The position numbers and the translations under genes are program-made. Shown piece by piece: positions 5,501 to 61,688 of a stretch of 64,000 bases of DNA (positions are counted from its first letter, which is position 1; every line of letters begins with the position of its first letter). The stretch comes from Algibacter mikhailovii (GTDB lineage: Bacteria > Bacteroidota > Bacteroidia > Flavobacteriales > Flavobacteriaceae). The stretch spans positions 96,162-160,161 of the forward strand of contig NZ_BMWZ01000009.1 in the NCBI RefSeq assembly GCF_014651495.1. Reading direction: 5' to 3'. Under the pieces are notes generated by a model. That model saw nothing but the letters and a program-made list of their open reading frames with translations, was not told where the DNA came from and ran no database searches.

Positions 5501-6601
5501 TTGTTTTTTATTAAAGTAACACCACTTTTTTTGAAACATCTATTCCTTTTATATTTTTTATTAATTCCAGTTTGGGCATTTTCCCAAAATGAAGAAACTG
5601 AAAAAGATAGTAGCCCTGCTTTAAATGCATATATTAAGGACTACAATAATCAATTAAATATTAGACTAGATGTTACCAATGAACAGATAAAATATTTCAT
5701 GCCTTATGAACAACAAAAAGCGAACATTAAAACGAACTTAAATGAAAGCTATGGCCTTGTTTTTAGTTATAGATTCCTTTCAGTCCGATTAGGCGTACGA
5801 CCAAAATTATCGCAAAACGAAATAAACAACAAAGGAGAAACAGATCGATTCCGCCTTAGAGTTAAATTATTATTTGACAAATGGACACATAGGCTGGAGT
5901 ATAATTATACCAGAGGTTTCTATATTGACAACAGCAATGATTTTGACTACATCATAGAAAATCCCGATTTTAAAATTCAATTCCCGCGTTTAACAACTAA
6001 CATTTTATCAGGTTCTTCACATTATAAATTCAATGATAATTATTCAGTAAAAGCCATTGAATCTAATACAGAAATTCAATTACAAAGCGCAGGCACGTTT
6101 ATGGCTGGTATAGATTATTCCTTCTATTTTGTTGAAGGAACTGATTACCTAAAATTAGAGAATGACGAGGTTCTCAATAGAGACAGTTACAGCGATTACT
6201 CAGGGTTTAGTCCTATTTTAAATGCTGCATATCATTATACATATGTGTTTGAACAATATTGGTATATCAATGCATATGCAAATCCTGGATTAGGTATTGA
6301 TTTCAGTACAAAAAAACAATTCACTAATGGCGATGCTATATACAGCAATAACACGTTGATTTATGCGGCTTTGAGAACTGGAATTTCGGCTGGATATAAT
6401 GGAAAAAAAATATATTTTGGAGGAGAATATAAATATGATATTAACAGCGAGAAGTTTGATAATACCGCTATTACACTCCAACCAATAAAGAATAATTTCC
6501 ACCTCTTTTTTGGCTATAGATTTAAGGCCCCAAGACAAGTACGTGAACCTGTTGAATACATAGAGACAAAGGTTCCAGTTTTAAAAACAGACAGTAAATA
6601 A
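5501..6601 (+). CDS. outer-membrane beta-barrel protein, DUF4421-like
   Basis: A 366-residue protein with a signal peptide (LFLLYFLLIPVWAFSQ) and alternating aromatic/polar strands typical of an outer-membrane barrel, for example RLRVKLLFDKWTHRLEYNY and IYFGGEYKYDINSE. The opening YIKDYNNQLNIRLDVTNEQ with a following GLVFSYRFLSVRLGVRP matches the look of DUF4421 proteins of Bacteroidota, which have no known function. There is no in-frame ATG before the signal peptide; TTG at 5501 gives the best start. It stands alone, convergent with the DUF481-like gene. Confidence 0.65.
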   Translation: MFFIKVTPLFLKHLFLLYFLLIPVWAFSQNEETEKDSSPALNAYIKDYNNQLNIRLDVTNEQIKYFMPYEQQKANIKTNLNESYGLVFSYRFLSVRLGVRPKLSQNEINNKGETDRFRLRVKLLFDKWTHRLEYNYTRGFYIDNSNDFDYIIENPDFKIQFPRLTTNILSGSSHYKFNDNYSVKAIESNTEIQLQSAGTFMAGIDYSFYFVEGTDYLKLENDEVLNRDSYSDYSGFSPILNAAYHYTYVFEQYWYINAYANPGLGIDFSTKKQFTNGDAIYSNNTLIYAALRTGISAGYNGKKIYFGGEYKYDINSEKFDNTAITLQPIKNNFHLFFGYRFKAPRQVREPVEYIETKVPVLKTDSK

Positions 6602-19940: not shown

Positions 19941-20719
19941 GGTTCTGTCGCATCAAAGTATGGACTAAATTAATTTTCTACATTTACTTTTAAAAAATAA
20001 GATGTTCAAAGGCCATTGTTTCCCTAAAGTTATCATTTTACAAGCAGTTTATTTTAAATTAAGGTTTAGTCTTAGCTATAGAGACATTGAAGAATTACTG
20101 TCTATTAGAGGAGTTAAGGTGGATCATGCTACCATTCAACGTTGGGTATTCAAATTCACGCCTTCTGTAGAACAACAATTCAGAAAAAGGAAGAAATCAG
20201 TTGGGAAAAGGTGGAGAATGAATGAAACCTATATCAAGGTTAAGGGGCAGTGGAGATATTTATATAGAGCAGTTGATAAACAAGGGAATACTGTTGACTT
20301 TTTACTAACCAAAAGAAGACAACGCATATCTGCTCAAAGATTCTTAATAAAAGCTATAGAAAGTAATGTTAAGCCAGAGCTCATAAACATTGATAAGAGT
20401 GAATTTAATACTGCTGCGATAAAACTATACAATTGTAGAAACTATTCTAATATAAAAATAAGGCAATGTAAGTACCTGAATAACATTGTAGAACAAGATC
20501 ATCGATTGATTAAGTGGAGGATAATGCTTGGTCTTGGATTTAAAGGATTTGAATCTGCCAAAAGAACCATATCTGGAATGGAAGTTGTTAGAATGATAAG
20601 AAAAAATCAATTGTTGGTTTCTAAAAATTCAACCTACAAATCATTTATATCGTTGGCTTCTTGAAAAATGAATTAATTTGAAATTTTTATTGCTTATTTT
20701 TATCAGATGCGACAGAACC
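19941..20719 (+). mobile_element. IS6-family insertion sequence with inactive transposase
   Basis: A 779-bp element with perfect 14-bp terminal inverted repeats, GGTTCTGTCGCATC at 19941-19954 and its complement at 20706-20719. The ends resemble other IS6/IS26 ends (GG-x-x-x-TGT-x-GC). The flanking 8 bases differ (AACCTAAC left, TTTTTGGT right), so there is no target duplication; this suggests recombination between copies or a deletion beside the element. Confidence 0.85.
20002..20664 (+). CDS. IS6-family transposase, first catalytic Asp replaced by Asn
   Basis: A 220-residue DDE transposase of IS6 type with a short N-terminal helix-turn-helix (SLSYRDIEELLSIRGVKVDH, then TIQRWV). The catalytic triad should be Asp in WRxDETYIKVKG, Asp in IDKSxxNTAAI and Glu in NNIVEQDHR. 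Here they are Asn74 (WRMNETYIKV), Asp131 and Glu164. An Asn codon AAT in place of GAT is a one-base change that removes a metal ligand, so this copy is probably dead although its reading frame is intact. It spans most of the 779-bp element. Confidence 0.88.
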   Translation: MFKGHCFPKVIILQAVYFKLRFSLSYRDIEELLSIRGVKVDHATIQRWVFKFTPSVEQQFRKRKKSVGKRWRMNETYIKVKGQWRYLYRAVDKQGNTVDFLLTKRRQRISAQRFLIKAIESNVKPELINIDKSEFNTAAIKLYNCRNYSNIKIRQCKYLNNIVEQDHRLIKWRIMLGLGFKGFESAKRTISGMEVVRMIRKNQLLVSKNSTYKSFISLAS

Positions 20720-20769
20720 TTTTTGGTAGCTGCTTTATTCTCTCGTGATGTTAAGAATTTTTTACTTAT

Positions 20770-20934
20770 CTAAACTAAAGCTGCTCCCGTGGCCGCGTTA
20801 CCAATTCCAGTCAGGGACATTTGCTCTTTCTGTGGTTCATTTGAGACAGTTGGTAGTTGACTTTTTTCTGTGTTCTGTAGTGTGGTATTTTTCAGGTGGT
20901 CTGGTTGCTTATAAAAAGGAAATGCCTTTTTCAA
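20770..20934 (-). CDS. short open frame after TlpA-like gene, possible peptide or gene remnant
   Basis: A 54-residue frame from a TTG at 20934. It is in the same frame as the TlpA-like gene whose stop is at 20941-20943, so the translation would simply continue past that stop. Composition looks coding rather than random (QPDHLKNTTLQNTEK, then SLTGIGNAATGAALV at the end). There is no signal peptide and no known family. It ends 50 bases from the inactive IS6 element. It could be a small protein, a remnant joined to the TlpA gene by deletion, or chance. Confidence 0.3.
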   Translation of the reverse strand: MKKAFPFYKQPDHLKNTTLQNTEKSQLPTVSNEPQKEQMSLTGIGNAATGAALV

Positions 20935-20940
20935 AAAAAG

Positions 20941-22482
20941 TTATTTAATATTGTCAATTATTTGTTTGAATATTTGGGTATCAGATGGTCTTGGCGCATT
21001 ATTTAGAATAATTTCATTTTCCTTGTTCAAAATTACATATCTTGGAATCCAATTGACCTTAAAGAATTTCCCTAGCTTAGAATTTGTACCTTCAAGAACT
21101 AAATATTGATTTTTTACGTTTAAAAATTTTTCAAGTTCTTTAGATTTTTTTAGCCATTTTTCTATGTCTTTATCTATGGATAAGTAAATCCATTCCACGT
21201 TACCTTCTATGGATAAGGCATCTTTAAAATCTTTTTCTTTTTTTATTTCATCAATACATGGTGGACACCAACTTGCCCAGAAATCAATAACTTTTATTCT
21301 TTTATTAGAACCACTAAAAATTTCGCCTAATGTTAAAGTATCGCCATATTTATTGAGTAACTTAGTATTTAATGCTGATTCAGGAAGCTTTAGTTCAAAA
21401 TAACCTATATCATCTATAAATCCCTGAATATCTTTTGTGTACTGTGAGTCTGGATACTGTTTACTATATTCGTTAATTATATTTTTAAAAAAAGAAGCAC
21501 TTTCTTTACTGTAACCAAAGCCCTTATCATGATAAGTAGCGATAAGAGAAGCTAAGGTGTACTCCTTGATTTCTTCATTGAAATTATACTCTATAACAGC
21601 TTTTTCAGCTAATAATTTTTCTTTGGTGTACCTTGGATAATCTGAAGTTTCAAAATGACATCTTATAAGTGTTGGTAAAGCAGCCTTGTAAGAAAGCATA
21701 TTTAAATGGCTCTCATCTTTAAAATCATCTACTGTAATATTACCTAAATAGTTTTTAATACTAAACAATTTTTCACCTGTACTATACTCTTTTTGAATAA
21801 TTGGAATTAACCCATCTGGGTCAACCAGGTAAATAGAATTTTTGGTTTTTTTTGTTCTAGGATTTGTTAATTCAAATATGTGCCAATATTTCAAATCCGA
21901 CTCTATATATTTGATAAATGATTTTGATGTAATATTAAGCCTCTTTATGTACCTATTGAAAAAATCTACTTTTTTATTATAGATAGAATCTACCCTAGAC
22001 TTATACTCCATAATATTCCCTTTATAAGAGTTAAGCATATAATTTGGCGTAGAGTCTTTTAAATTTGAATAAAAATTATGTTCATTTGCTTTCTCTCCTT
22101 TGATATGAATTCGTTTATTTTTAATCTCAAAAATAATGGTGTCACTTGGTTTTAAAATAAATTTTGTAGCATACATTACACTATCAGTATAAGAAAACAT
22201 ATCTATTAATTGTGGTTCTGAAATAGAGTCAATCTTCAAAATCAAGGAGTCTCCAATTATTTTTATTTCAGTATAATAATTTTTTAATTTAAGTGAAGAC
22301 GAAGACTTATTAACTATATTAAAAAACTCAAAAGCTCTTAAATTATCGGTTTTACCAATAATAATAGCCATTCCCATTTTGCTATTATCTTTAGTCTTTT
22401 GACAATCCGTATTGTCTTTTTTTTGATGATCACAATTAAAGAGAACAACGATTATTATGGCACTAAGTATTTTCTTTATCAT
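20941..22482 (-). CDS. lipoprotein with C-terminal TlpA-type thioredoxin domain (A)
   Basis: A 513-residue lipoprotein (lipobox VLFNC). The N-terminal ~370 residues are helical and charged with no domain I recognise. The last ~140 residues are a TlpA/ResA-like thioredoxin fold with active site WCPPC at 405-409 (KVIDFWASWCPPCIDE), the cis-Pro loop WIPRYVIL, and the ending NAPRPSD. Such proteins reduce disulfides in the periplasm. It has the same plan and ending as the gene at 23086-24549, and between the two lies a broken Cys-rich peptide precursor. A role in handling cysteines of that peptide is plausible but inferred from position only. Confidence 0.85.
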   Translation of the reverse strand: MIKKILSAIIIVVLFNCDHQKKDNTDCQKTKDNSKMGMAIIIGKTDNLRAFEFFNIVNKSSSSLKLKNYYTEIKIIGDSLILKIDSISEPQLIDMFSYTDSVMYATKFILKPSDTIIFEIKNKRIHIKGEKANEHNFYSNLKDSTPNYMLNSYKGNIMEYKSRVDSIYNKKVDFFNRYIKRLNITSKSFIKYIESDLKYWHIFELTNPRTKKTKNSIYLVDPDGLIPIIQKEYSTGEKLFSIKNYLGNITVDDFKDESHLNMLSYKAALPTLIRCHFETSDYPRYTKEKLLAEKAVIEYNFNEEIKEYTLASLIATYHDKGFGYSKESASFFKNIINEYSKQYPDSQYTKDIQGFIDDIGYFELKLPESALNTKLLNKYGDTLTLGEIFSGSNKRIKVIDFWASWCPPCIDEIKKEKDFKDALSIEGNVEWIYLSIDKDIEKWLKKSKELEKFLNVKNQYLVLEGTNSKLGKFFKVNWIPRYVILNKENEIILNNAPRPSDTQIFKQIIDNIK

Positions 22483-22538
22483 TGATATATTGTTTTAACT
22501 AAAGCGAAAGACATTAGTCTTTTCCTGAAATAAAATGA

Positions 22539-22819
22539 TTATGCCCCTGAACATATCCAACTCGAGTGAGATGGAGCAATATATTTACAAACAATATTGC
22601 AATAATCACAGTCAAGTACATATGTTTCATAAGCAATAGTGCCACCTGACTTACAAGAACATAAACCACTACCATTGCCACCTTGAGCACCACCGCCTCC
22701 ACCTCCACTAGGTTCTAGAGCATCATGTTACTAACACCTCCAAAAACAGTTTTTAATTGGTTACGATTAAATTTTTCGTAAGAATCTAAATTCAAACTCT
22801 CTAAACTTAATTTTTTCAT
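22539..22819 (-). pseudogene. double-glycine-leader peptide precursor (RiPP-like), frameshifted
   Basis: From the ATG at 22819 the frame encodes a leader starting MKKLSLESLNLDSYEKF and ending NQLKTVFGG, the pattern of Bacteroidota GG-leader natural-product precursors (TIGR04149-like: MKKL-x-L, then QLK-x-V-x-GG). Five codons after GG the frame hits TAG near 22708. Shifting by one base (one base missing around 22712-22728) opens a frame to the TAA at 22539. It encodes DALEPSGGGGGG, then AQGGNGSGLCSCKSGG, then a segment with Cys in DCDYCNIVC, ending SSWICSGA. That core has six Cys. Either the gene is inactivated or there is a sequencing error. It sits between two TlpA-like genes; no maturase or transporter is visible nearby. 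Confidence 0.7.
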
Positions 22820-23085
22820 AAAAAATTAATTAATTTATTTATCCTGAACCTTTAAAGAAACTCAGGTTTTATGTCTGCTTTTGCGCAAAAGAGTATTTTT
22901 AAATTTTCTAATTACCCAATCATCTTAATTATGTTATCATAAAAACCAAAAGATTTACCATGAAAGCTCTAAAAATCACACCCTTAGGTCATTATAAAAA
23001 TATTTTTAAACTTAAAACCCCACTAAACAGCTATACTTGTTCATTATACCCTCTGGCCTAAATCAAGTAATTTTCTGTTTTTTTT
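22820..23085. other. intergenic with upstream region of peptide precursor
   Basis: AT-rich, 266 bases. It holds a perfect 14-bp palindrome CTTTTGCGCAAAAG at 22878-22891, upstream of the minus-strand precursor. A 33-codon plus-strand frame at 22960-23061 looks like chance. No clear TAnnTTTG box was found. Confidence 0.35.
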
Positions 23086-24549
23086 CTATTTCTTTATCCT
23101 TTTTAAATATTTTTCTATTAACAATTCTGCTAATCCAGAATCAGGACTAGGTGCATTATGAAGTAAAATCTCACCCCCATCATCAAGAAGAATAAATCTA
23201 GGTATAGTTGAAATAGCTAATTCCTTATAAAAATTTGAATTAGGATAGTTAATTGCGCGGTAATTATTCTTATTTCTCCAGATACCTTCATCACTTGCAG
23301 CTTTTTCCCATTCATTCATATCTTTATCAATGGATAAATAAACAAAAGAGACATTTTTGTTTTTAAACTTATTTTGAAGGTTTTTTGATTCTGGCATTAA
23401 TGACCTACATGGTCTGCACCAGCTGGCCCAAAAATCAATATAAATTAGTTTTCCCATATTTTTTTCTAAAATTTCAGTAAAACTCAAGTGATTCCCTTGT
23501 ACATCATTAAAATATAATTCTTTATAATATTCTTTTATTCTAGAAAATGTCTTTAAATATTCTATTTTAGAGCCACTAATAATTCCTAAATTTTCATTGC
23601 CAAATAAGTAAACAAACTTCTGAGAGTATGCTTTAAAAACATTAATATCCTCGTATTTCAAAATTTCTGCCAAGCATAAAAGCTGGGAGTACTTGAGCAA
23701 ATTTCCCGAAACAAAAGAAGGTAAAACATCAAAGGCAGTTTTATAATTATATCTTATTTTAGGAAAACTCTGTAAACTAATTCCCTCCAAAACAATATCT
23801 TGAATAAACCTATTTATGTAGCCATATCCAATAAAATCATCATTAATAACCATATCATCTTTAAAAAACTTTATTAAAATTTCATCCTTAAATAAGTTTT
23901 CATTAGTTAGATGGTAAACACTGATTAAATCGTTAAATAATTTGTATTTAATCTCCGAAGCATGAAATTCATAATTAGCTCTACTCAATAAGCCCTTTTT
24001 AAACTTTTGATCTAACAAATCAAGTATCTTTTTATTGAATTCTTCTTTTAATGATAAATAATTCAAGTAATCTCCTAACTCATACTTCCTATTTCTGATT
24101 AATTGCCCTCTTCTAAAAGCCCCCTCATTTCCGAGTAAATCCCGATCCATTGATTTTATTATACTATCTTCATATTTCAATCTTACATTAAGAAAATCTG
24201 ATAAGTTCAAGGTGTCATATTTTTTTAATTTTTTGTTTAAAAAATTAAAAACTAAACCATCCTTTGAAATATTAGTTATAACGGTATCCCCCCGTTGCGC
24301 AACAATTGTTTCAAATGAAAATTCATTTCGGATATATATTTTCCGAAAACTATTTACGCTAACATCTATCGTGTCCTTTCTTTTCAGAGTCGTTACACGA
24401 AGACTTCTTAATGTTTTAATATCTATTCCCGTACCAATGTTTGTCGATATGCCATTGGGATTTGAGACAATAATTGTTATGGTATTTTGACATGAAAATT
24501 CACAAGAGATCGAGAAAAGTATCAAAAAAAATACTATCGTATGTTTCAT
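23086..24549 (-). CDS. lipoprotein with C-terminal TlpA-type thioredoxin domain (B)
   Basis: A 487-residue lipoprotein (lipobox FSISC, with another Cys four residues on). The N-terminal ~340 residues are helical and of unknown family. The C-terminal domain is TlpA-like with WCRPC at 377-381 (YIDFWASWCRPCRSL), the cis-Pro loop STIPRFILLD and the ending NAPSPDSG. It shares overall plan with the 20941-22482 protein, so the two are paralogues flanking the broken peptide precursor. Same strand as that precursor and upstream of it, so one transcript could cover all three. Predicted to be periplasmic thiol reductase, anchored in a membrane. Confidence 0.85.
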   Translation of the reverse strand: MKHTIVFFLILFSISCEFSCQNTITIIVSNPNGISTNIGTGIDIKTLRSLRVTTLKRKDTIDVSVNSFRKIYIRNEFSFETIVAQRGDTVITNISKDGLVFNFLNKKLKKYDTLNLSDFLNVRLKYEDSIIKSMDRDLLGNEGAFRRGQLIRNRKYELGDYLNYLSLKEEFNKKILDLLDQKFKKGLLSRANYEFHASEIKYKLFNDLISVYHLTNENLFKDEILIKFFKDDMVINDDFIGYGYINRFIQDIVLEGISLQSFPKIRYNYKTAFDVLPSFVSGNLLKYSQLLCLAEILKYEDINVFKAYSQKFVYLFGNENLGIISGSKIEYLKTFSRIKEYYKELYFNDVQGNHLSFTEILEKNMGKLIYIDFWASWCRPCRSLMPESKNLQNKFKNKNVSFVYLSIDKDMNEWEKAASDEGIWRNKNNYRAINYPNSNFYKELAISTIPRFILLDDGGEILLHNAPSPDSGLAELLIEKYLKRIKK

Positions 24550-24733
24550 AATTTTAGCATTACCATTACATAGATTAAAATAAAAAGGAAATCAAACAAT
24601 CTATTGTCCATTTCAACAATTTGAAAATTCAGCCTTAATTCACCATACAAATCTTAACTGTTGTAACAACTATTTCAATTATCAGAATTGTAGTTTTCAT
24701 GCAATGGGTTTTAGTAACCTATGAGCATTTTTT

Positions 24734-24871
24734 TTATTGATAATAACCTGTACATGTACAATCGGTAACTTCCGCCCTACCAAAACCTCCTAAATCAGGA
24801 AATATTGTACCTACAAGAGCACGACAAGCACTTACAGAAGCTTCTTGTAAAAGTAAGAAAATTAATAACAT
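24734..24871 (-). CDS. short peptide frame beside tRNA repeat, possible truncated precursor
   Basis: A 45-residue frame from the ATG at 24871, which lies directly after a terminator hairpin. The start MLLIFLLLQEAS is hydrophobic; the end has IFPDLGGFGRAE then VTDCTCTGYYQ, with a Gly-Gly and a C-x-C near the end, somewhat like the Cys-rich core at 22539. The start codon occupies the same place relative to hairpin and tRNA repeat as the integrase ATG does at 61592. So the N-terminus may have been replaced when the adjacent island inserted. Function unknown; could be chance. Confidence 0.3.
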   Translation of the reverse strand: MLLIFLLLQEASVSACRALVGTIFPDLGGFGRAEVTDCTCTGYYQ

Positions 24872-24877
24872 AAAAAA

Positions 24878-24901
24878 ACGGATTGTGAGTACACAATCCG
24901 T
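24878..24901 (-). terminator. tRNA-linked intrinsic terminator at left island junction
   Basis: On the minus strand, a 10-bp perfect stem (ACGGATTGTG / CACAATCCGT) with a 4-base loop, followed by T7. It lies 21 bases past the tRNA-Met 3' end. The same architecture with different bases occurs at 61599-61622. Confidence 0.8.
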
Positions 24902-24922
24902 TTGTTTTATTAGCTTCAAGCT

Positions 24923-24967
24923 TTGTAGCGGGAACTGGACTCGAACCAGTGACCTTCGGGTTATGAG
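24923..24967 (-). repeat. attachment site copy 1: tRNA-Met 3' half (45-bp direct repeat)
   Basis: Minus-strand reading gives the anticodon loop CTCATAA, then CCCGAAGGTC, the T arm ACTGGTTCGAGTCCAGT and the acceptor 3' strand TCCCGCTA. It is identical over 45 bases to 61644-61688. The expected 5' half (starting near AGCGGGA) is not found to the right, so this is a 3' fragment and not a working tRNA. It marks the left end of the island. Confidence 0.85.
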
Positions 24968-25080
24968 CCCCAAGACTGCCATTTTTTAAACCATTTTACT
25001 GGCCTTTCCAGCTGCTTTTTTGTAGAAACGTGTTCTAAAACGTGTTCAGTTTTATGTTCACTTTTTATACAAATTTTCAT
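24961..25080 (-). pseudogene. integrase N-terminus-like remnant carrying arm-type repeats
   Basis: A 39-codon frame from the ATG at 25080 to a TAA inside the tRNA repeat. Its SEHKTEHVLEHVSTKK resembles the start of the island integrase (EHRSEHVLEHALKIK). The DNA has CGTGTTC at 25029 and 25041 and TATGTTC at 25053, a 12-base period. The same period and nearly the same words occur at 61532, 61544 and 61556 in the integrase gene, with 20 bases identical. More likely a set of integrase arm-binding sites than a gene. No promoter is visible. Confidence 0.5.
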
Positions 25081-25203
25081 TACGCAATTTAGGATAAAAT
25101 TTTAAAAATTAAAAGTGATGTTTTTTTAATTGTAAATCGAAAACTGAACTTAAAAAAGTACAACTCATTTTCATAAAACTAAAAGGCTCTTCTAATATTG
25201 GCT

Positions 25204-26715
25204 TTATCTATACGGCACCTTTTTTCTTGATTTCTTATAAAGGTTAACATATGTTTTAAAGCCAATTTCTTCTCCTTCTAACATTCTTTTATAAGCTTCT
25301 GGGTGTTGCTGCTTGACAAAGTCTAAAACCTCAACGGAAATTGGACTTACGGGCTTAAAGGAATCACTAATAGATGACATTTCATTATCATATTGCGCAG
25401 TCCTTTCTCTTAATTGAGTTAAGGTTTTTGCATATTTAGGGTTATTGGCTAAATTATTCATTTCAAAGGGATCATTTTGCAGATCATAAAGCTCCTCCAC
25501 AGGTTTTGATGTTCTAAAAAACAATTGTTCAGTACTACTTAATTTTCCCTGTTGGTTTAATTGTCTCATCACATGTACTGCGGGACGATAAAATTCTAAA
25601 TACGCCTGTTCTGCATCCCAAGGAATATCAGGTTTGTCATTGCGAATGTACTTCCAGCGTTCCGTACTTATAGAACGAGATTTTTCTTCGATTTCATCCC
25701 ATAAATCACGGGTGCTATACACCTCCTTTCTATTAAAATTTTTGTTGTAAAAAGATGTCCCAGTCATATAAGTAGGTATTTCACAACCTGCTATATCTAA
25801 AATAGTGGCTGTAATGTCTGTGGCACTTATTACATCATCAATCACTTGCCCGCCTTTAAAATGTTTAGGATAATAAACAATGAGTGGAATTCTTAAACCA
25901 GGATCATGGAGGTAACCCTTTCCTCTGAGATTACAACGCCCATTGTCTCCTATAAAAATGATCACTGTATTATCGGCCATTCCCTTTTGTTCCAGTTCGT
26001 CAACAATCATCCCAACTTCATTGTCAATGAATTCCATCTGATCTAAATATTTGGCCCAATCCAAACGTATGGTAGGATGATTTGCATAATAGGGTGGTAG
26101 TTCTATCTCATCAGGATTGACAGGGTCTTTAGATTTTGCCCTCACCTCATCCCACCAGTCTCCACGATGTGTTGCAACCAGTTGTATCTGAGCAAAAAAC
26201 GGTTGGTCTTCAGGTAAAAATTCATCCTTTTTATCAAACAAACCAAAATTTTCTTTACCATCCCAATGACCGATAGGCTGAGTTTTAAAATTACAATCTA
26301 TTTTGCGCCCATTACCCATTACGCCATGATGTCCCAATATACAAGTGTAACCACTTTCTCTAAGCCAATATGTAAAGGGTTTATAAGGTTCTGGTAGCGC
26401 TATTTTTCTATTACTCCGATGATTGTGAGCATTAATTTTTAGTTGATGTGTCCCTATCATCATTGAAGACCGGCTAGGAGAACAAATAGGATTGGTCACA
26501 AAACAATTATTGTATAGCATCCCTTCTGCAGCTAAACGGTTGAGGTTTGGGGTTTGAACCCCCTTGGTGCCATAACACTCTAAATCCAAACTGATGTCCT
26601 CTGCCATTAGCCAGATGATATTAGGCTTAACGACTACTTTTGATTGCGCAGGCAAGAAAAAAGAAGTCAACATTAGACCACTTAAACAAATTAAGATCTT
26701 CATATTACTTTTCAT
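25204..26715 (-). CDS. S1-type sulfatase, sulfamidase-like (CSPSR)
   Basis: A 503-residue exported alkaline-phosphatase-fold sulfatase (signal peptide LSGLMLTSFFLPAQS). The formylglycine site is Cys78 in CSPSRSSMMIGT; the metal strand reads NIIWLMAEDISLD (Glu-Asp rather than the common Asp-Asp), and the late metal site is FIGDNGRC. The overall look (IGTHQLKINAHNHRS, then ECYGTKGVQTPNLNRLA) resembles heparan-N-sulfatase-like enzymes, though in an algal PUL it probably removes an O-sulfate. It is the last gene of the minus-strand PUL operon and overlaps the preceding sulfatase by 11 bases; the second Met (26703) is an alternative start. Confidence 0.9.
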   Translation of the reverse strand: MKSNMKILICLSGLMLTSFFLPAQSKVVVKPNIIWLMAEDISLDLECYGTKGVQTPNLNRLAAEGMLYNNCFVTNPICSPSRSSMMIGTHQLKINAHNHRSNRKIALPEPYKPFTYWLRESGYTCILGHHGVMGNGRKIDCNFKTQPIGHWDGKENFGLFDKKDEFLPEDQPFFAQIQLVATHRGDWWDEVRAKSKDPVNPDEIELPPYYANHPTIRLDWAKYLDQMEFIDNEVGMIVDELEQKGMADNTVIIFIGDNGRCNLRGKGYLHDPGLRIPLIVYYPKHFKGGQVIDDVISATDITATILDIAGCEIPTYMTGTSFYNKNFNRKEVYSTRDLWDEIEEKSRSISTERWKYIRNDKPDIPWDAEQAYLEFYRPAVHVMRQLNQQGKLSSTEQLFFRTSKPVEELYDLQNDPFEMNNLANNPKYAKTLTQLRERTAQYDNEMSSISDSFKPVSPISVEVLDFVKQQHPEAYKRMLEGEEIGFKTYVNLYKKSRKKVPYR

Positions 26716-61643: not shown

Positions 61644-61688
61644 TTGTAGCGGGAACTGGACTCGAACCAGTGACCTTCGGGTTATGAG
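61644..61688 (-). repeat. attachment site copy 2: tRNA-Met 3' half (45-bp direct repeat)
   Basis: Identical over 45 bases to 24923-24967: anticodon loop, variable region, T arm and acceptor 3' strand of a tRNA-Met read on the minus strand. The sequence to the right (TTTGAAAAAACACCC on plus) does not provide the tRNA 5' half, so this copy is also a fragment. Confidence 0.85.

Follow-up and report, generated by a model that had tools for sequence, protein, structure and literature searches.

A broken reading frame in a gene of Algibacter mikhailovii for a six-cysteine peptide with a double-glycine leader, and a conserved, predicted RNA pseudoknot upstream of it

Introduction

What remains of a gene for a predicted exported peptide when its leader and its core no longer share a reading frame? 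The locus studied here raises this question within a window of 64,000 nucleotides (nt) of Algibacter mikhailovii DNA, the whole stretch that was analysed: a double-glycine (GG) leader and a core with six cysteines lie at 22539-22819 on the minus strand, in different frames. Genes of this kind are hard to follow, as the core sequences of Bacteroidota double-glycine peptides are highly variable and poorly detectable through protein similarity. An earlier note, made from the sequence alone, read the locus as a broken RiPP-like precursor; its precursor stands, and it missed a conserved RNA-like element just upstream. We read the locus, with a probability of roughly 0.75, as a GG-leader gene for a six-Cys peptide whose frame is broken, with a conserved element upstream, predicted to be an RNA pseudoknot, that likely sets translation of the precursor.

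A precursor gene split between two frames

Two features make up the gene:

22715-22819 (stop included), minus strand: leader open reading frame (ORF) of the precursor, 34 amino acids (aa), MKKLSLESLNLDSYEKFNRNQLKTVFGGVSNMML, which stops shortly past the GG
22539-22727, minus strand: core frame, a Gly-rich linker and a six-Cys core, open up to its own stop

The leader ORF consists of MKKLSLESLNLDSYEKFNRNQLKTVFGG and a short tail, and a GG leader ahead of a short core is shared by the window leader and the intact homologues. A profile built from seven intact homologues, searched against the 1,667 stop-to-stop frames of the whole window, ranked the core frame first (E = 9.7e-10) and the leader frame second (8.7e-9), the next frame scoring 0.67. 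A single Salegentibacter agarivorans precursor (L086:4115-4360) used as query also placed these two frames at the top of the 1,667 (core, 6.7e-23; leader, 2.6e-5). The frame-broken GG-leader precursor with a Cys-rich core that had been proposed is therefore real, its halves being the two best frames of the window. Used alone as query in a large protein set, the core half returned no candidate, and when 60 relatives were searched at the DNA level, the matches in every one were no better than chance; a wide-flank check of two of these relatives found precursors in one (G018, locus L047) and none by pattern in the other (G003, locus L046).

Related loci and the state of their precursors

The gene next to the precursor provided an anchor for finding related loci:

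20941-22482, minus strand: TlpA-type thioredoxin, 513 aa, open (Pfam Thioredoxin_8, 6e-11), with orthologues 61-63% identical in four family genomes

These four, from 299 family genomes searched, are Snuella sedimenti (G185), Pontimicrobium aquaticum (G223), a genome taken as Algibacter pacificus (G176) and G084; three more loci, in Gelidibacter maritimus, a Lacinutrix MAG and Salegentibacter agarivorans, came from scanning named genomes. Together with the window these make eight related loci; Salegentibacter and Snuella, like the family searched, are Flavobacteriaceae. The precursor is open in three of the eight (Salegentibacter, Algibacter and Gelidibacter), and proteins P0002-P0005 are further intact homologues, so that the intact copies which the earlier note had proposed to seek in related genomes do exist. 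At the other loci, the window precursor carries the frame change, that of Snuella has an in-frame stop just past the GG (a product of 33 aa, against 34 aa in the window), that of G084 has no ATG at its start and that of Lacinutrix is a core remnant only; no precursor was seen upstream of this TlpA in Pontimicrobium.

TlpA itself is open in seven of the eight loci and frame-broken in Lacinutrix (L085), with pairwise dN/dS of 0.19-0.39 (21 pairs among seven genes). The idea that it is a retained immunity protein stays a lead, because the L085 copy is broken and TlpA was itself the search anchor for seven of the loci. Its synonymous distances among Algibacter, Snuella, Pontimicrobium, G084 and Gelidibacter are 0.13-0.35, and phage-type recombinase domains occur at four loci (Algibacter, Gelidibacter, Salegentibacter and Pontimicrobium), which together suggest that the cassette may move between genera.

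The intact cassette

The cassette is best preserved in Salegentibacter, where its order is C39-VKOR-thioredoxin, precursor, TlpA, C39-ABC and HlyD. The fusion gene (528 aa), precursor (81 aa), TlpA (515 aa) and HlyD (433 aa) are all open there, and the C39-ABC frame measures 738 aa as cut at 6107, a putative start. Elsewhere the parts are damaged: the ABC region of Algibacter lies in several frames and its fusion gene shifts frame towards the end, Gelidibacter has a single in-frame stop in the ABC gene and a split fusion gene, and in Snuella the fusion is shortened to a 190-aa C39 part. The intact gene content suggests export and disulfide formation, and the RiPP-like reading is narrowed accordingly: the GG-leader precursor holds, and the intact cassette points instead to C39 export combined with VKOR/TlpA thiol chemistry.

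Sugar-related genes follow HlyD at all three loci with an open precursor (L086:9730-11277, L032:14336-15418 and L082:16406-17083), with a glycosyltransferase domain at the Salegentibacter and Algibacter loci and, at the Gelidibacter locus, a cytidylyltransferase encoded two genes past HlyD. These genes leave room for a glycocin-like product and are a hint that the peptide may be glycosylated.

The window genome and its neighbourhood

Searches of the window genome, which is 99.98% complete, found no C39 peptidase (PF03412, E ≤ 1), no VKOR domain (PF07884, E ≤ 0.01) and no second precursor (E ≤ 0.01). The earlier note had placed the export genes outside the window and suggested a search for C39-peptidase genes elsewhere in the same genome; they are indeed absent from the window, and the absence is genome-wide at the above thresholds. 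A C39-ABC transporter, present at the Salegentibacter locus, is thus missing from this genome. Because C39 and VKOR domains are both lacking, the window gene, which looks decayed, is best read as a relic.

The main rival is that the living strain carries an unbroken precursor and the break is a sequencing or assembly error. The halves lie one frame shift apart and the core half is still well conserved relative to its Salegentibacter homologue, a conservation that would suit either a recent break or a sequencing error. Against an error stand the lack of C39 and VKOR domains in the genome, the different kinds of break at related loci, and the one pair missing from each pseudoknot helix of the upstream element (below); we regard it as unlikely, at perhaps one chance in five.

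Several features adjoin the precursor and its TlpA:

20002-20664, plus strand: IS240-type transposase adjoining the cassette (Pfam DDE_Tnp_IS240, 1.4e-39)
23086-24549, minus strand: second TlpA-type thioredoxin, 487 aa, open (Pfam Thioredoxin_8, 4e-20)
24752-24895, minus strand: likely second-precursor remnant, the end of a Cys-containing core with no leader seen, 37.5% identical over 48 residues to P0013
24925-24954, minus strand: 3' portion of a sequence resembling tRNA-Met, which may mark an integration site, with an exact 30-base copy at 61646-61675 (minus strand)

For the second TlpA, the 396 remaining genomes of the 397-genome family set yielded a single, partial relative at E ≤ 1e-40. 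The frame upstream of it matches P0013 at E = 3e-5 when one query is run on 173 frames; this match, the best of 105 queries, is suggestive only of a second precursor remnant. This possible remnant adjoins the tRNA-Met-like fragment, which scores 22.7 bits against the Rfam tRNA model (below the gathering score of 29) and in which ARAGORN finds no tRNA. In Lacinutrix, the precursor remnant and TlpA likewise come after a tRNA-Met gene, and this shared context makes it likely that a tRNA serves as integration site. The two copies of the tRNA-Met-like 3' end are 36.7 kb apart with a sulfatase-like gene region between them, and are possibly island junctions.

A conserved element upstream of GG-leader precursors

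Directly upstream of the leader lies one further feature:

22832-22904, minus strand: conserved 5' element, a hairpin and a predicted H-type pseudoknot, with some 12 nt between its end and the leader ATG

The upstream regions of GG-leader precursors have a block in common, in which a hairpin around TCGCG is followed by GACAC-AAA-CCTTGA-GTGTC-(8-9 nt)-TCAAGG. The strand pairs GACAC/GTGTC and CCTTGA/TCAAGG are interleaved, as in an H-type pseudoknot. Two models of the block were used, one of sequence only (R1) and one of structure (R2), and the window element matched both (R1, 53.2 bits, E = 7.6e-15; R2, 67 bits, E = 4.3e-14). It lacks one pair in each pseudoknot helix and is the sole row that breaks those two pairs in a 22-row alignment.

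R1 located the element at no fewer than 160 places in 60 of 397 family genomes, with one place in the window genome; the scan scored 11 candidates per genome, and genomes with 11 may hold more. R2 matched in 20 of 395 genomes of the phylum, 12 of them of the same family, and of its eight matches outside the family three precede GG peptides (L211, L215 and L218) and five do not. Among 12 chosen genomes, VKOR is present in six, all of which have R1 matches; in the other six, a match occurs in the window genome alone.

No Rfam 15 family matched the element in L033, L082, L086 or window positions 20000-26000 (all E ≤ 10), nor at eight further loci (E ≤ 1). Among the matches listed by full-text literature searches, which covered few subscription papers, there was no description of the element or of a C39-VKOR-linked GG peptide system. 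In a 2010 survey of 104 candidate RNAs, the Bacteroidetes motif Flavo-1 is marked as not cis-regulatory and the word 'bacteriocin' is absent from the text (PMC2864571). One exact element pattern searched against viral contigs gave 0 matches.

Three further observations concern the element and its surroundings. Snuella sedimenti carries a second copy downstream of TlpA (L149:461-526, equivalent to L015:3087-3164) with no precursor after it, perhaps a relic. Four places on the minus strand of L041 hold a variant interleaved repeat (GACTT-AATA-CCTTTC..GAGTC..GAAAGG and similar), possibly a sister motif; three of the places lie before GG-leader ORFs and the fourth before a different ORF. Finally, many loci (for example, L116, L119 and L120) show an extra stable hairpin directly 5' of the element, and the mean folding energy of the 50 nt upstream of the element is -8.6 kcal/mol, compared with -4.0 kcal/mol for base-shuffled sequence (n = 95).

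Covariation of the predicted helices

Pairing was very good in an initial 22-copy alignment. That count was biased, given that 21 of its rows had been picked by a script demanding pairing, and it was therefore replaced by counts on held-out copies. R1, run on 92 chosen sources, gave 131 matches, from which removal of identical and training rows left 96 held-out copies. In these, pseudoknot helix S1 was paired in 470 of 478 cells (98%; best of 500 shuffles, 450) and pseudoknot helix S2 in 516 of 535 (96%; best of 500 shuffles, 451). Hairpin helix P1 was weaker (388 of 451 cells; best of 500 shuffles, 374). Across 117 distinct rows, a set that includes the training rows, both sides had changed at 15 of 17 pairs, and all five measures lay above every shuffle and slide. 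The innermost P1 pair often fails (unpaired in 47 of 114 cells). Two interleaved, covarying helices are thus present in copies found by sequence alone, and the H-type fold itself is predicted from them.

Interleaved inverted repeats could also bind a protein, and the block might then be a DNA operator or promoter rather than an RNA structure. The pairs covary with many different letters, and G-U and A-C combinations are unequal in number: S1 and S2 together have 63 G-U and 9 A-C, against shuffle means of about 104 and about 55 (outer S1 pair counted, 96 held-out copies). Such a surplus of G-U relative to A-C, read on the sense strand, is expected of an RNA rather than of DNA, and the operator reading is improbable. 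P1 shows little strand asymmetry (G-U, 60; A-C, 48).

Linkage of the element to GG-leader genes

Under a strict rule (ATG start, 40-130 aa, xGG and at least three Cys), a Cys-rich GG ORF follows the element at 100 of 120 distinct places, against 22 of 3,000 random positions, a background taken from loci with some precursors of their own. Under a loose rule, a GG-leader-like ORF follows at 109 of 120 places against 349 of 3,000 random positions; the remaining places, about 11 of 120, include GS, GY or GQ variants, remnant-like sequences and a few that are unexplained. The distance from the end of S2 to the ATG is nearly constant (median, 28 nt; quartiles, 26 and 28.75; few outliers; n = 100). 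Exactly six core Cys occur in 57 of 103 precursors, and one element precedes a C39-VKOR gene instead of a precursor. Where element-bearing loci had longer flanks, Pfam confirmed C39-ABC in two scanned loci (L147 and L162) and HlyD in three scanned loci (L156, L157 and L162).

The precursors could alternatively be of a radical-SAM or class I lanthipeptide type (as in TIGR04149), with cross-links other than disulfides. Among 60 of the 103 element-linked precursors, weak matches at E ≤ 0.01 fell to TIGR04149 (8), NF047798 (5) and NF038153 (3). The four homologues tried all scored below the TIGR04149 cut-off, the cassette includes thiol oxidase genes, and nine of the 15 listed ORFs at the Salegentibacter locus, scanned with Pfam, show no radical-SAM domain (the six others being the precursor, TlpA and four short ORFs). 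We judge this reading improbable, at about one chance in ten. As for a programmed frame change or a leader-only product used as such, the similar length of the Snuella product would suit it, yet the interruption is an in-frame stop in Snuella and a change of frame in the window, three homologues have an open frame throughout and the window genome has no C39 exporter, which makes it very improbable.

Proposed mechanism

We propose that the element forms part of the 5' leader of the precursor transcript, where it would fold into a hairpin and a compact pseudoknot. Between this fold and the start codon there would remain about 28 nt of A/T-rich sequence. Some 28 nt before a start codon is about the room that a ribosome needs. 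The folded element likely sets translation of the precursor, either as a fixed enhancer or as a switch. In intact relatives, the precursor would be cut after the GG and exported by the C39-peptidase ABC transporter with HlyD, and its six Cys would form disulfides through the C39-VKOR-thioredoxin protein and TlpA, to judge from gene content; the product may act as a bacteriocin-like or signalling peptide. In the window genome, neither a C39 nor a VKOR gene was found and the precursor would have decayed, with both TlpA frames and most of the RNA fold remaining.

A bolder and more tentative proposal, to which we give rather less than even odds, is that the element represents a new class of pseudoknot switch that senses a small molecule or a protein of the export and oxidation pathway, and gates diverse disulfide mini-proteins in Flavobacteriaceae and beyond, as well as a C39-VKOR enzyme in at least one genome. 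The conserved RNA-like element offers a handle on GG peptides regardless of their cores and suggests common control over a peptide arsenal, of which the window may capture one cassette decaying in a genome without its exporter.

Comparison with known systems

Among families of modified peptides, TIGR04149 (radical-SAM-modified RiPP precursors) resembles the present system in leader style and in the weak matches of homologues. The comparison with this family that the earlier note had recommended came out negative: the window leader does not match, homologues score 13.1-21.9 bits against a cut-off of 25 (16.6 bits for the intact Algibacter homologue), the window genome has nothing over the cut-off (one match at E = 3.4 is noise) and the genes scanned near the intact Salegentibacter copy include no radical-SAM gene. 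The best NCBIfam match of the window leader is instead NF047798 (leader_Chryseo, 'bacteriocin-like protein'), over the last 11 leader residues (E = 0.0063), although its 16.7 bits fall below the cut-off of 23.5.

Two leader RNAs, the downstream-peptide/glnA and preQ1 RNAs, contain pseudoknots. As is predicted for the element, they place the pseudoknot in the 5' leader, and the name downstream-peptide suggests the same place before short ORFs; they differ in host group, and Rfam 15 has no match at the element (11 loci and the window stretch).

Glycocins such as sublancin combine a GG leader and disulfides with C39-ABC and thioredoxin-like genes. The sugar-related genes after HlyD at the three open-precursor loci add to this likeness, which is known here from gene neighbourhood alone, whereas glycocins belong to another phylum and their cores are unrelated as far as compared. 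A further resemblance is to C39-exported GG-leader peptides of the bacteriocin or microcin type, which share the GG leader, the short Cys-rich core and, in the intact cassette, C39-ABC with HlyD; the intact cassette described here goes beyond them in adding a C39-VKOR-thioredoxin fusion, TlpA genes and the upstream RNA-like element.
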